Source: Streptomyces sp. TSRI0281 (GTDB taxonomy: Bacteria; Actinomycetota; Actinomycetes; Streptomycetales; Streptomycetaceae). From it: a DNA stretch of 64,000 nt. Below are positions 7,323 through 19,040 of this stretch, piece by piece. A program made the translations under genes and the position numbers. The stretch covers positions 527,398 to 591,397 of the forward strand of contig NZ_LWLE01000023.1 of the NCBI RefSeq assembly GCF_001905125.1, in the 5' to 3' direction. Below the pieces are notes generated by a model. The model was not told where the DNA came from. It saw only the letters and a program-made list of their open reading frames with translations, and ran no database searches. Within the stretch, counting starts at the first letter, position 1. Every line of letters begins with the position of its first letter.

Positions 7323-8759
7323 TCATGCCAGGGTGGACGGGGTCGCCCCGTCGGCCCCCGCGGCCTTCGCGGCGGCCCGGACGGCTCCCGCGACGGCTCC
7401 CGCGACCTTGTCGTTGAAGACCGACGGGATGATGTAGTTCGCGTTCACCTCGTCCTCCGCGACGACGTCGGCGAGGGCACCGGCCGCCGCGAGCATCATC
7501 TCCGTGTTGACGGTGCGGGACTGAGCGTCCAGCAGACCGCGGAAGACACCCGGGAAGACCAGCACGTTGTTGATCTGGTTGGGGAAGTCGGAACGGCCGG
7601 TGGCCACGACCGCCGCCGTCTGACGGGCGATCGCGGGGTCCACCTCGGGGTCCGGGTTCGCGAGCGCGAACACGATCGCGCCGTCCGCCATCGCCGCGAC
7701 ATCGTCGCCGTTCAGGACGTTGGGGGCGGAGACGCCGATGAAGACGTCGGCGTCGACGACGGCCTCCTTGAGGGTGCCGGTGACGCCCTCGGGGTTGGTG
7801 TTGTCGGCGATCCAGCGCAGCGGCGAGTCGGGGTCGGCGGAGACCAGGTCCTCGCGGCCCGCGTGCACCACACCGTGGATGTCGGCGACGACCGCGTGCT
7901 TGACGCCCGCGGCGATGAGCAGCTTCAGGATGGCCGTACCGGCGGCTCCGGCACCGGACATGACGACCCGTACGTCCCCGATTCCCTTGCCCACCACACG
8001 CAGCGCGTTGGTCAGCGCGGCCAGGACGACGATCGCGGTGCCGTGCTGGTCGTCGTGGAAGACCGGGATGTCCAGGGCCTCGCGCAGCCGCGCCTCGATC
8101 TCGAAACAGCGGGGTGCGGAGATGTCCTCCAGATTGATGCCCGCGAAGCCCGGGGCGATCGCCTTGACGATCTCGACGATGGCATCGGTGTCCTGGGTGT
8201 CCAGGCAGAGCGGCCAGGCGTCGATACCGGCGAAGCGCTTGAAGAGGGCCGCCTTGCCCTCCATGACCGGCAGCGCGGCCATCGGGCCGATGTTGCCGAG
8301 GCCCAGCACCGCGGAGCCGTCCGTCACAACTGCGACGGAGTTGCGCTTGATGGTGAGGCGGCGGGCGTCCTCGGGGTTCTCGGCGATCGCCATGCACACC
8401 CGGGCGACACCCGGGGTGTAGATCATCGAGAGGTCGTCACGGTTGCGGATGGGGTGCTTCGACTGCATCTCGATCTTGCCGCCGAGGTGCATCAGGAACG
8501 TACGGTCGGAGACCTTGCCCAGCACGACACCCTCGATGTCGCGCAGACCCTCGACGATCTCGTCCGCGTGCGAGGTGGAGGAAGCTGCGATGGTGACGTC
8601 GATCCGCAGCTTCTCGTGGCCGGAAGCGGTCACGTCGAGGCCGGTGACAGACCCCCCGGAGGACTCCACGGCCGTGGTGAGCTGGGAGACTGCTGTGCCG
8701 CTCGCGGGCACCTCCAGCCTGACCGTCATCGAGTACGAGACGCTGGGCGCCGTTGCCAT
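7323..8759 (-). CDS. NAD-dependent malic enzyme with N-terminal ACT domain
   Basis: A 478-residue cytoplasmic malate oxidoreductase (oxaloacetate-decarboxylating) that turns malate into pyruvate and CO2. An ACT-like regulatory domain covers about residues 1-80 (VRLEVPASGTAVSQLTTAVESSGG). The catalytic part has IYTPGVARVC with the conserved Tyr, EGKAALFKRFAGIDAWPLCLDTQ, the metal-binding FHDDQHGTAIV and the nucleotide loop SGAGAAGTAI. FPNQINNVLVFPGVFRG closes the active site. I chose ATG 8759 (MATAPSVSYS), preceded by an AAGGA ribosome site; the reading frame is open 75 codons further upstream, but that stretch looks like leader RNA. The cofactor call (NAD rather than NADP) rests on remembered relatives. 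Confidence 0.93.
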   Translation of the reverse strand: MATAPSVSYSMTVRLEVPASGTAVSQLTTAVESSGGSVTGLDVTASGHEKLRIDVTIAASSTSHADEIVEGLRDIEGVVLGKVSDRTFLMHLGGKIEMQSKHPIRNRDDLSMIYTPGVARVCMAIAENPEDARRLTIKRNSVAVVTDGSAVLGLGNIGPMAALPVMEGKAALFKRFAGIDAWPLCLDTQDTDAIVEIVKAIAPGFAGINLEDISAPRCFEIEARLREALDIPVFHDDQHGTAIVVLAALTNALRVVGKGIGDVRVVMSGAGAAGTAILKLLIAAGVKHAVVADIHGVVHAGREDLVSADPDSPLRWIADNTNPEGVTGTLKEAVVDADVFIGVSAPNVLNGDDVAAMADGAIVFALANPDPEVDPAIARQTAAVVATGRSDFPNQINNVLVFPGVFRGLLDAQSRTVNTEMMLAAAGALADVVAEDEVNANYIIPSVFNDKVAGAVAGAVRAAAKAAGADGATPSTLA

Positions 8760-8959
8760 GGCCGAGTCCTTCGCTTTCCTTAGCTTCATTGCTACGCGGC
8801 CGGGGCAGTCGCCCCGTACACGCTTCCCGATCGTCGCACCTACTGACTGGTAGCCGGTAATGACTGCCACGTTTCGGAAAGTTTTTTCCACCATACGAGA
8901 AGTCACCCTCCCGGCGGAACCCCCAGCCGCCTCCCGCGCAGGGTCTTGCCGCTTCCCCC

Positions 8960-9110
8960 AACAAGAACAGGCCCGCGCCACCATCAGGTGACGCGGGCCT
9001 GTCTTCTTCAGTTAGGTGGCACCGACCCGCCATGCTCGCCTCGCGGCAAGTGGTCGCTCGAAGCGACGAAGGTTGGGCCCGGGGGCTTGGATCGAGCCGG
9101 TGCCAACACC
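8960..9110 (-). ncRNA. Probable structured small RNA upstream of the malic enzyme gene
   Basis: On the minus strand a compact RNA of about 150 nt can be drawn. Near its 5' end GGTG-TT-GGCACCG can pair with CGGTGCC-ACC some 85 nt downstream, closing an inner region with further hairpins (GTCGCTTCGAGCGAC at about 9050-9064 is a perfect one). It is followed by a strong terminator stem with a T-rich tail. A sigma-R-like promoter sits just before it. There is no good reading frame. I recall a Streptomyces coelicolor small RNA named scr2952 at this locus, but cannot verify identity. It could also be a leader with premature termination for the malic enzyme gene. Confidence 0.6.
8967..9002 (-). terminator. 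Terminator of the small RNA
   Basis: Perfect 11-bp arms ACAGGCCCGCG and CGCGGGCCTGT; on the minus strand the stem is followed by TTCTTGTT, an unusually T-rich tail for this genome. Confidence 0.85.
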
Positions 9111-9115
9111 AGGCT

Positions 9116-9141
9116 AACAAACACCCCCGAGAAGTGATTCC
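9116..9141 (-). promoter_or_regulatory. Candidate sigma-R (SigR) promoter for the small RNA
   Basis: On the minus strand GGAAT (9141-9137) is followed by exactly 18 bases and GTT (9118-9116), the published form GGAAT-N18/19-GTT of promoters used by the thiol-oxidative-stress sigma factor. TAGCCT overlapping the -10 could also serve a housekeeping factor. Binding is inferred. Confidence 0.55.
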
Positions 9142-9197
9142 TTCACGACGGGTTGACCCGAAATCGAATCGTCCCCCCGGCCCGCCCGTCGTCGGCC

Positions 9198-11573
9198 TCA
9201 GTCCCTCAGCAGGTCCGGAACACCGTCCTCGTCCGGCATGTCCCGCTCCCCCGACACCACCGTGAGCTGCTGCGTCGCCCGGGTCAGCGCCACGTACAGC
9301 ACCCGCAGCCCGGCCGGGGACTCGTCGGCGATCTCCGCCGGAGAGACGACGACCGTGGCGTCGTACTCCAGGCCCTTCGCCTCCAGGCTCCCCAGCGCCA
9401 CCACCCGCTCCCCCAACTCCGCGAGCCAGGTACGGGCCTGGGCGCGGCGGTTCATCGCCACCACCACGCCGACCGTCCCGTCCACCTCGGCGAGCAGCCG
9501 CCGCGCCTCCTCGCGGACGGTGCCGGCCAGGTCGCCGTCCCGCACGGTCTCGAAGCGCGGCTTCACACCGGTCGAACGCACCGCCGAAGGAGACTCCGTC
9601 CCCGGCATCGCCAGCGCCAGCACCTTCGACGCGAGTTCGGCGATCTCGGCCGGGTTGCGGTAGTTGACGGTGAGGGTGAAGCGACGGCGCGGACGGCTGC
9701 CGAGCGCCTCGTCGCGGGCCGCCGCCGCCTCGTCCGGGTCGGACCAGGAGGACTGGGCCGGGTCGCCGACGATCGTCCAGGTGGCGTGCCGGCCCCGGCG
9801 GCCGACCATCCGCCACTGCATGGGGGTCAGGTCCTGCGCCTCGTCGACGATGACGTGCGCGTACTCGGTGCGCTCCGCCGCCAGCCGTTCGGCCCGCTCG
9901 CGCTGGGTCTCCTCACGCTGCGGCATCAGCTCCTCCAGCCCGGAGAGCTGGTCCAGCGGGTCGAACTCGCGCTTCTTCTTCGGCCGGTACAGGGTGCCGA
10001 GCAGCGCCTGGAGCTCGTCCAGGATCGCCACGTCGTGCACGGACAGAGGGCCCTTCCCCTCGGCGTCGAGCCGCTTCAGCGAACGGGCCACCCGCCGCAC
10101 CTCCCCCTGGTTGAGCACCCGCCGCGCCCAGCGGCCGAGCCGCTTCTCGTCGGCCATCGCGGCGAGCACCCCGCGCGGGGTGAGCTCGGGCCACCAGGCG
10201 TTCAGGAACACCAGGAACGGGGTCTCCGTGGAGACGTCCTCGTCGAAGGAGGAACGCAGCTCCGCCGCGAGCTCCGGGTCGGTGTAGCGGCCCCGGCCCG
10301 AGGACTTGCTCCACAGGGCGTCCAGCAGCAGCTTGCGGGCGCGCGGGCGCAACAGGTTGACCGGTGCGGTGCCGCCCAGCACGTTGTGCCGGATGCGCTG
10401 GAGCTCGTCGGCGTTCAGCTCGACCCGGGCACCGAAGGCGACCACCCGCAGCCGGGTCGGGGTGCCCTCGGGCCCCTCCGGCGCCTCCTCGCCGAAAGCG
10501 AGCTGACCCTCCTGGGGCGCCGAACGGGTGCCCGGTGTCTCCAGGGCTCCGCGCGCGGCCTTGCGCAGCACGTGGAGCATCCGGGAGGAGCCCTTGACGC
10601 GGGACACGGCCGGTTCGTCGTACGTGGTGGCCCCGGCGACGCCCGCCGCCTCGTCGGACAGCGAGCCGACCGCACGGATCGCGACCTGGCCCTCCTCGCC
10701 GAGCGAGGGCAGCACCCCTTCGGTGTACGCGACCAGGAGCGGGGTCGGCGAGACGATCAGGATGCCGCCCGCGTACCGCCGCCGGTCCTGGTAGAGCAGG
10801 TACGCCGCCCGGTGCAGGGCGACCGCGGTCTTCCCGGTGCCCGGTCCGCCGGTGACCTCCGTGACGGAGGCGGCGGGGGCCCGGATCACCATGTCCTGCT
10901 CGGCCTGGATGGAGGAGACGATGTCCCGCATGGTGTGGCTGCGGGCCTGGCCGAGCGCGGCCATCAGGGCGCCGTCGCCGATCACCGGCAGCTTGTCGCC
11001 GTCCAGGAACGCGGTCAGCTCGGGCCGCATCAGGTCGTCCTCGACCCCGAGGACCCTGCGGCCCTTGGAGCGGATGACCCGGCGGCGTACCACCCGGCCG
11101 GGTTCCTTCGGGGTCGAGCGGTAGAACGGCGCGGCGGCCGGGGCCCGCCAGTCGATCACCAGGGGCGCGTAGTCGGAGTCCAGGACTCCGATACGGCCGA
11201 TGTGCAGCGTCTCCGCGATATCGGCGGTGGCGTCCTCGCGGACGGCGTCGTCGGCCGGCTCGACGGAGGTGAACGCACCGTCCGGGCCGCGCTCACCGTC
11301 CTTGCCGAGCAGCAGATCGACCCGTCCGAAGAGGAAGTCCTCGAACTCGCTGTTCAGCCGGTTGAGGTGGACGCCGGCCCGGAAGACCTGGGCGTCCCGC
11401 TCGGCGAGCGCGCCGGGCGTGCCGACCTGCCCGCGTTTGACGGCGTCGTGCATGAGAAATTCCGCCTCGTGGATCTTCTCTTCGAGGCGGTGGTAAACCC
11501 GGTCCAGATGTTCCTGCTCGACTCCGATTTCCCGGTCCCGCAACGAATCGACAGCGGCATCCTGCGCGGCCAC
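9198..11573 (-). CDS. HelD-like UvrD-family ATPase (RNA polymerase recycling factor type)
   Basis: A 791-residue superfamily 1 helicase-like protein. The first 100 residues form an acidic/basic coiled segment (REIGVEQEHLDRVYHRLEEKIHEAEFLMHDAV), as in HelD proteins where it enters the RNA polymerase secondary channel. The P-loop GGPGTGKTAVALHRA is near residue 240, motif II VIVDEAQDLTPMQW near 576, VGDPAQSSW near 605 and the late motif VLYVALTRATQQL near 765. HelD proteins remove stalled RNA polymerase from DNA, and some Streptomyces members give rifamycin tolerance (established for HelR). I do not see the rifamycin-associated element upstream, so this is probably the constitutive paralogue. 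The start is GTG 11573 (MAAQDAAV). It is monocistronic. Confidence 0.88.
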   Translation of the reverse strand: MAAQDAAVDSLRDREIGVEQEHLDRVYHRLEEKIHEAEFLMHDAVKRGQVGTPGALAERDAQVFRAGVHLNRLNSEFEDFLFGRVDLLLGKDGERGPDGAFTSVEPADDAVREDATADIAETLHIGRIGVLDSDYAPLVIDWRAPAAAPFYRSTPKEPGRVVRRRVIRSKGRRVLGVEDDLMRPELTAFLDGDKLPVIGDGALMAALGQARSHTMRDIVSSIQAEQDMVIRAPAASVTEVTGGPGTGKTAVALHRAAYLLYQDRRRYAGGILIVSPTPLLVAYTEGVLPSLGEEGQVAIRAVGSLSDEAAGVAGATTYDEPAVSRVKGSSRMLHVLRKAARGALETPGTRSAPQEGQLAFGEEAPEGPEGTPTRLRVVAFGARVELNADELQRIRHNVLGGTAPVNLLRPRARKLLLDALWSKSSGRGRYTDPELAAELRSSFDEDVSTETPFLVFLNAWWPELTPRGVLAAMADEKRLGRWARRVLNQGEVRRVARSLKRLDAEGKGPLSVHDVAILDELQALLGTLYRPKKKREFDPLDQLSGLEELMPQREETQRERAERLAAERTEYAHVIVDEAQDLTPMQWRMVGRRGRHATWTIVGDPAQSSWSDPDEAAAARDEALGSRPRRRFTLTVNYRNPAEIAELASKVLALAMPGTESPSAVRSTGVKPRFETVRDGDLAGTVREEARRLLAEVDGTVGVVVAMNRRAQARTWLAELGERVVALGSLEAKGLEYDATVVVSPAEIADESPAGLRVLYVALTRATQQLTVVSGERDMPDEDGVPDLLRD

Positions 11574-18653: not shown

Positions 18654-19040
18654 TGGTGGAGATGGCGGGAATCGAACCCGCGTCCAACGGTGCAGAACCA
18701 GGGCTTCTCCGAGTGCAGTTCGCTGCGCTTTTCTCGGCCCCGGAGGTCACACGAACAAGCCTCCGACAGGCCCAGTCACTGTTTGATTTCCTTCTCAGCC
18801 CCGTGACCGGGCTGAGAAGTTTAGATCCCTAGTTGATGCCAGGATCCGGGTCGGGATCACCCCCGGGCTGACACTCCGCAGAGTCTTCGCTAGCTGCTAA
18901 TTAGGCAGCGAGGGCGAAGGCGGAGGAATCGCGCTTGGAATTGGCGATTATTGTTTGCGACATATGGTTTACGAGATCATTGCCGCTTCCTCGACTCGCT
19001 TCCCCTGCTTCGACATCCGCTGTCGAAACCGATCATCCCC
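18654..19040 (-). ncRNA. ssrA: Transfer-messenger RNA (tmRNA)
   Basis: A 387-nt one-piece tmRNA that rescues stalled ribosomes with SmpB and tags the product for degradation. The 5' end GGGGATGATCGGTTTCGACA pairs with the 3' end CATCTCC-ACCA, giving a 7-bp acceptor stem with encoded CCA. The T-arm GCGGGTTCGATTCCCGC is intact. The tag frame is at 18945-18901: ANSKRDSSAFALAA, then UAA and UAG stops. The tag ends in ALAA as required for ClpXP recognition and is close to the S. coelicolor tag as I remember it. Pseudoknot-forming GC-rich segments lie at about 18790-18900. The smpB gene lies 86 bp upstream in the same direction. Confidence 0.97.

Follow-up and report, generated by a model that had tools for sequence, protein, structure and literature searches.

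A conserved structured RNA of actinobacteria with a SigR/SigH-type promoter

The region between a HelD-like gene and a malic enzyme gene of Streptomyces sp. TSRI0281 contains the gene of a small RNA that is best explained, with a probability of about 0.8, as a stand-alone RNA under SigR/SigH-type control; this figure does not extend to its mode of action. All coordinates below refer to the window, i.e. the whole stretch of DNA analyzed (64,000 nucleotides; contig NZ_LWLE01000023.1, positions 527,398 to 591,397). Comparison among genomes shows the locus to be a conserved RNA gene with a predicted promoter of its own and, in most Streptomyces, a predicted terminator of its own. The promoter motifs strongly imply that the RNA is transcribed by the sigma factor of the thiol-stress response (SigR in Streptomyces, SigH in Mycobacteriaceae), and the RNA probably represents a deeply conserved noncoding family that is tied to SigR/SigH and acts in trans, a reading drawn from sequence comparison. 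The features of the locus are the following (alignments A5 and A6 are described further on).

9198 to 11573, minus strand: upstream neighbour, HelD-like RNA polymerase recycling ATPase (HelR/HelD models, below curated cut-offs)
9137 to 9141, minus strand: -35 element GGAAT of SigR/SigH type (from sequence; GGAAT kept in Streptomyces loci)
9116 to 9118, minus strand: SigR-type -10 core GTT, 18 nt from GGAAT (spacer 18 or 19 in Streptomyces loci having both boxes)
9111 to 9116, minus strand: TAGCCT overlapping GTT and fitting the housekeeping -10 TANNNT (TANNNT in 121 of 121 Streptomyces loci)
8960 to 9104, minus strand: predicted small RNA of about 145 nt (from folding and conservation; predicted start between about 9110 and about 9104)
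9018 to 9104, minus strand: conserved structured core with outer helix P1 (9104–9093 with 9029–9018, continued by 9090–9088 with 9032–9030; from covariation)
9068 to 9087, minus strand: C-rich junction strand AGCCCCCGGGCCCAACCUUC (C-rich core CCCC.GG..CCA largely kept)
9053 to 9067, minus strand: hairpin P2, GUCGCU-UCG-AGCGAC (pairs 66/78 and 68/76 of alignment A5 covary)
9035 to 9050, minus strand: hairpin P3, CUUGCC-GCGA-GGCGAG, with a GNGA tetraloop (GCCG.GAGGC near-invariant in alignment A6)
8960 to 9002, minus strand: intrinsic terminator with a 16-bp stem (9002–8987 with 8982–8967) and the tail UCUUGUU (from sequence and fold)
7323 to 8759, minus strand: downstream neighbour, malic enzyme, not part of the RNA (malic enzyme models, below curated cut-offs)

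The original prediction, a GGAAT-N18-GTT promoter directly followed by a foldable stretch and a strong T-tailed terminator, is borne out in all its elements on the minus strand of the window. GGAAT (9141–9137) is separated from GTT (9118–9116) by exactly 18 nt (9136–9119), and the stretch of 159 nt from 9113 to 8955 folds at -91.7 kcal/mol against a mean of -67.1 for shuffled sequences (z -5.6; 0 of 200 shuffles as low), its 16-bp terminator stem being that listed above. The motif GGAAT-N18/19-GTT occurs 159 times on the two strands of the 9.63-Mb source genome, so that a match alone proves nothing, whereas conservation at one fixed place does. Mechanical open reading frames overlap the place of the RNA (e.g. 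a 459-aa minus-strand frame at 8437–9816, and plus-strand frames of 63 and 77 aa), and together with the very high DNA identity within the genus they are what could be said for a conserved DNA element or a small coding gene in place of an RNA. However, species in the Streptomyces alignment differ by single-base insertions and deletions in the conserved core, and the crossing frames are therefore judged spurious, with no conserved frame; these frame-breaking changes, the compensatory changes of base pairs described below, and the RNA's own promoter and terminator make a DNA element or coding gene scarcely credible.

The RNA is found far beyond the source genome. A 196-bp query matched all 121 sampled Streptomyces genomes; the weaker matches mostly shrink to a core at about 9122–9017 with 86–100% identity over the aligned part, and at least 84 of the 106 core bases are aligned in all 121 loci. 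The terminator behind the core varies greatly among these loci, and a terminator-like hairpin with a T tail follows the core in 102 of them, compared to 3 of 371 control windows. A first covariance model, built from 54 of the 121 Streptomyces loci (alignment A1), recovered the RNA from 149 of 150 genomes of Streptomycetaceae, representing 16 of 17 genera, and matched 24 of 346 genomes of a phylum sample, 14 of them outside Streptomyces. A second model, built from 43 loci with distant relatives included (alignment A5), gave matches in 190 of 325 class genomes (31 of these from Streptomyces), spread over 65 of 121 genera, while 135 of the 325 gave no match at the cut-off; the RNA is thus either widespread in the class but not universal, or too diverged in some families. 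No genome of family f87 is among the class matches, and several genomes of family f3 give no match although relatives have one. A pattern scan returned at least 119 matching stretches from Nocardia, Mycolicibacterium/Mycobacterium and Rhodococcus, and the second model matched all 80 of those that were used. Tandem copies of the RNA are seen in three Nocardia loci (L271, L302 and L303; 88 bases from start to start) and in locus L252 of genome G770 (185 bases).

Covariation supports the predicted fold. Within Streptomyces (A1), 99.9% of cells are paired and 4 of 27 pairs are changed on both sides; the count of covarying pairs was reached by 6 of 500 shuffles, that of further pair types by 111 of 500, and the other measures by none. 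With distant relatives (A5), 97.7% of cells are paired, compared to 31–48% in slid controls, and 18 of 27 pairs are changed on both sides, with 0 of 500 shuffles reaching any measure; in A6, which comprises 85 hits from 84 sources, 94.7% of cells are paired and 20 of 27 pairs are changed on both sides, while 4 of 500 shuffles came up to the pair count and none to any other measure. Both A5 and A6 were fitted to the model's own structure, which favours that structure. Covariation in the proposed stem, whose absence was to count against the original prediction, is thus present in both alignments. All 15 pairs of P1 are changed on both sides in A5, so that P1 keeps its pairing and not its letters, whereas letters are largely kept in P2 (CGCU-N-CGAGCG), in P3 (GCCG.GAGGC, with the GNGA tetraloop) and in the junction strand (CCCC.GG..CCA). 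In the wide alignment A6, pairing is weak at the innermost position of P1 and at the two outer positions of P3. Two further elements were considered and set aside: the models omit a GCC-CCCG-GGC mini-hairpin that is predicted for Streptomyces, GCC-N4/5-GGC being present by a rough count in only 15 of the 85 A6 sequences; and a kissing-dimer role is not claimed for CCCGGG, which is present in 73 of the 85 and is thus not invariant.

As a positive control for the promoter analysis, the region upstream of the RsrA gene, where we take sigR and its own promoter to be located, was found to contain GGGAAT-N18/19-GTTG in 29 of 30 loci. GGAAT-N18-19-GTT is the SigR consensus according to the available text of PMC9205884, and TAnnnT is given as the Streptomyces housekeeping -10 in that of PMC8079986. 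At the RNA, 94 of the 121 Streptomyces loci have exact GGAAT separated from GTT by 18 or 19 bases; another 19 carry the box with a single mismatch, and in 8 it was not found. When the pair is relaxed to GGAAN-N17–20-GTT, it is present in 96 of the 121 loci and in 42 of 14,581 control windows of the same loci. Two sets of hits extend this comparison to other lineages: 75 hits in other families (74 loci in 73 genomes, i.e. 14 non-Streptomyces loci of the phylum sample and 60 places of the class sample chosen for spread), and 79 of 83 model hits in Nocardia, Mycolicibacterium, Mycobacterium and Rhodococcus, from which the second tandem copies at L271, L302 and L303 and a partial hit (L290) were left out. 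The relaxed pair occurs at 42 of the 75 hits (49 of 13,908 control windows) and at 74 of the 79 (116 of 15,249), where several of the 79 loci share their species or strain (with 78 different promoter regions in all) and the two sets are not fully independent, 10 of the 75 belonging to family f3 and the regions of L165, L166 and L167 being identical to regions in the set of 79. Exact GGAAT with the same spacers is found at 26 of the 75 hits and 3 of 14,207 controls, and at 60 of the 79 hits and 16 of 15,367 controls; overall, the SigR-type pair has a frequency of 0.3–0.8% in control windows. Among the 75, family f3, which comparison with named loci identifies as Mycobacteriaceae (Nocardia and relatives of mycobacteria), has the pair in 10 of 10 hits and the rest in 32 of 65. 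Another 20 loci, outside the 42-of-75 count, include 12 with a SigR-type pair, a few of these at looser positions.

The pair is nevertheless absent from 25 of the 121 Streptomyces loci and 33 of the 75 other-family hits, and a second promoter type is superimposed on it. In all 96 Streptomyces loci with the SigR-type pair, the -10 sequence is GTTANNNT, which differs from the GTTG upstream of sigR/rsrA; a fit to TANNNT at the -10 is seen in 121 of 121 Streptomyces loci, compared to 544 of 14,581 control windows. TANNNT also occurs in 49 of the 75 other-family hits but in only 1 of the 79 Nocardia/Mycobacteriaceae hits; among the 75, 22 have both promoter types, 20 the SigR-type pair only, 27 TANNNT only and 6 neither. 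The GTTANNNT/TANNNT sequence at the Streptomyces -10 probably also serves the housekeeping sigma factor HrdB, which makes dual control likely, and the Streptomyces promoter is probably not purely stress-induced, to judge from its motifs. The notion of a thiol-stress small RNA thus stands as regards a small RNA gene with a SigR-type promoter, and probably gives way as regards purely stress-induced transcription in Streptomyces, where TANNNT is never missing. Three Streptomyces loci (L113, L118 and L120) lack GGAAT, have a TTG-type -35 element 16 bases before the -10 (TTGACC-N16-TAGCCT in L120) and look purely housekeeping, so that SigR control is not universal; a natural promoter swap is possible in these loci. 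Genome G762 has two copies of the RNA, one with a TANNNT-type promoter (L217) and the other with GGAAT-N18-GTTG (L218).

These observations bear on the possibility that the RNA is a genuine trans-acting RNA but a housekeeping one, the GGAAT boxes being secondary or serving another ECF sigma factor. The TANNNT counts in Streptomyces and in other families, the TTG-type -35 elements that replace GGAAT at some loci, and the GTTG upstream of sigR/rsrA in place of GTTANNNT all speak for it, but GGAAT is kept at its exact spacing in 94 of the 121 Streptomyces loci, and the Nocardia/Mycobacteriaceae hits have the SigH-type pair almost throughout with TANNNT at a single hit; a purely housekeeping RNA is accordingly considered unlikely. 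Preferred instead is a SigR/SigH promoter that is read as present in many lineages, overlaid by a housekeeping -10 in Streptomyces and some others, and replaced by a housekeeping promoter in some. In the available text of PMC10727445, sigR is called a homologue of sigH, and SigH and SigE sites are described as overlapping in M. abscessus, so that the sigma factor there may not be SigH alone. RsrA-type anti-sigma genes were found in genome G000 and in 318 of the 325 class genomes (263 above the curated cut-off); being nearly universal, they make co-occurrence with the RNA uninformative. tmRNA is a SigR target in Streptomyces. A tmRNA gene (Rfam RF00023) lies on the minus strand of the same window, at 18654–19040.

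The upstream HelD-like gene is presumably the equivalent of SCO2952, and the downstream malic enzyme gene that of SCO2951. SCO2952 is a class II HelD (PMC8655204). The original prediction had allowed for a stress-controlled attenuating leader of malic enzyme; in such a leader, or in a riboswitch, the promoter would serve the downstream gene and the hairpin would decide read-through. The order helD–RNA–malic enzyme on one strand, as in the window, is indeed shared by 113 of the 141 Streptomycetaceae loci compared, which comprise the 121 Streptomyces loci plus 20 selected from further genera of the family. However, 22 of the 141 have the RNA inverted, pointing in the direction that leads away from malic enzyme; helD alone was found at 5 and neither neighbour at one, flanks being short in many loci. 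Outside Streptomycetaceae, a Pfam scan of 20 flanking frames at 17 loci (no more than two at any locus, selected by a codon-position rule) gave no malic enzyme or helicase; 14 of the 20 matched Pfam families, namely short-chain dehydrogenase, HTH regulator, carboxyl transferase, PNPOx, DNA polymerase III alpha, PucR-type regulator, aldo/keto reductase, class IV aminotransferase (twice), MpaB/Lcp, 2-oxoglutarate dehydrogenase, hydantoinase, UPF0014 and AMP-binding, and 6 had no match. The class IV aminotransferase is common to L222 and L223, so that neighbours can be kept inside a family.

Because of the inverted loci and the differing neighbours elsewhere, the RNA cannot in general be a malic enzyme leader, and as a general function this role is largely refuted. 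A further point against it comes from the space between the RNA terminator and malic enzyme, where TCTCGTATGGTGGAA (8886–8900, minus strand), followed a few bases on by TTTCCG, is conserved in Streptomyces; at 61 of the 121 Streptomyces loci GTATGGTGGAA follows the RNA within 400 bases, and the TCTCGTATGGTGGAA/GTATGGTGGAA element may be malic enzyme's own promoter or operator. All told, the leader is a very improbable explanation, and a stand-alone RNA with its own promoter accounts better for the loci.

With respect to known RNAs, no Rfam 15 family reaches its gathering score on the source RNA, nor on the RNAs of 14 distant loci (L154–L167), where only tRNAs were matched, and permissive scans of the RNA place gave weak and unrelated matches only (MIR1846, STnc320 and Thr_leader); the Rfam and covariance searches proposed along with the original prediction thus yielded no Rfam family and a covariance model of wide reach. 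6C RNA has C-rich loops, and actinobacterial 6C loops are reported to pair with mRNAs. Both 6C RNA and Ms1 (scr3559) resemble the present RNA in being widespread structured RNAs of actinobacteria, and differ from it in that no Rfam 15 family reaches the cut-off here. MicA and RybB are SigmaE-dependent and Hfq-dependent RNAs limited to enterobacteria; they share with the present RNA the principle of a stress sigma factor driving a trans-acting small RNA, whereas the RNA described here has a fixed fold of large size that is widely conserved in a class. Distant relatives L160, L161 and L163 adjoin tRNAs, which raised a link to the CoRP RNA of C. glutamicum; this was set aside by size alone, CoRP being described in the available text as about 500 nt long.

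The nearest known transcript is scr2952 of S. coelicolor (Vockenhuber and co-workers), whose name suggests the same intergenic place. According to the available text of PMC8388888, scr2952 is confirmed as an sRNA, shows conservation in over half of the Streptomyces examined and is stated to be in Rfam, whereas no Rfam 15 model matches the RNA place here; that text mentions no SigR link for scr2952, and the two may be the same locus. As for the SigR/SigH regulon, the RNA has GGAAT-N18-19-GTT at the expected distance, kept in many lineages, but its Streptomyces -10 is not the GTTG upstream of sigR/rsrA and it is not named as a member in the accessible part of PMC9205884. The accessible parts of two other sources mention a predicted SigH link for the M. 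tuberculosis sRNA ncRv13596A (a review, PMC4109619) and 44 start sites with SigH-type promoters in C. glutamicum (an sRNA paper, PMC4046766). Among the matches listed from the open-licence literature, no paper was recognised that describes the RNA beyond the genus or ties it to SigR/SigH, which is weak evidence of novelty. It may be that the transcript has already been described from one species; what appears new is the class-wide family, together with its fold and the promoter link.

A mechanism consistent with these findings begins with thiol oxidation, which would release SigR from RsrA and thereby raise the level of the RNA, the overlapping housekeeping -10 supplying a basal level in Streptomyces; the RNA would then act in trans on other molecules. 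As to how it might do so, we tentatively favour an interaction in which the exposed C-rich strand (CCCC.GG..CCA) would pair with G-rich ribosome-binding regions and would lower translation of selected mRNAs, because no other largely fixed segment lacking a conserved helix is as long and because the 6C loops are reported to pair with mRNAs. Nearly as likely, because the hairpins also keep their letters, is a protein-binding RNA, in which the fixed fold of P2, P3 and junction would capture a protein, e.g. of the transcription or translation machinery, in the manner of 6S, Ms1 or CsrB-type RNAs. Protein capture would be an alternative mode of action inside the stand-alone RNA reading and does not compete with the existence of the RNA; the near-fixed letters of hairpins and junction, next to a P1 that keeps pairing only, are in its favour, as are the tandem copies in some Nocardia and in G770. 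On the other hand, an S. coelicolor RNA polymerase RIP-seq paper names, in its available text, only scr3559 and scr0792 as bound, and not the RNA described here, with none strongly bound to HrdB, and protein capture is held to be a sizeable but minority prospect.

Returning to the stand-alone RNA under SigR/SigH-type control, it appears rather probable that it is a core and ancient member of the regulon, mostly single-copy, whose fold was fixed before the split of Streptomycetaceae and Mycobacteriaceae, whose promoters came to be stress-only or stress-plus-basal according to lineage, and which acts in trans on translation or on a protein partner. To our knowledge, the SigR/SigH thiol-stress regulon has been described mostly as protein genes. 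The RNA may be an overlooked RNA arm of the thiol-stress response: if this is true, a covarying RNA whose promoter in Streptomyces, Nocardia, Mycolicibacterium and Rhodococcus is that of the regulon would give the regulon such an arm, and would join the small number of regulatory RNAs conserved over so large a part of an actinobacterial class. A covariance model for RNA databases would annotate it in many genomes.
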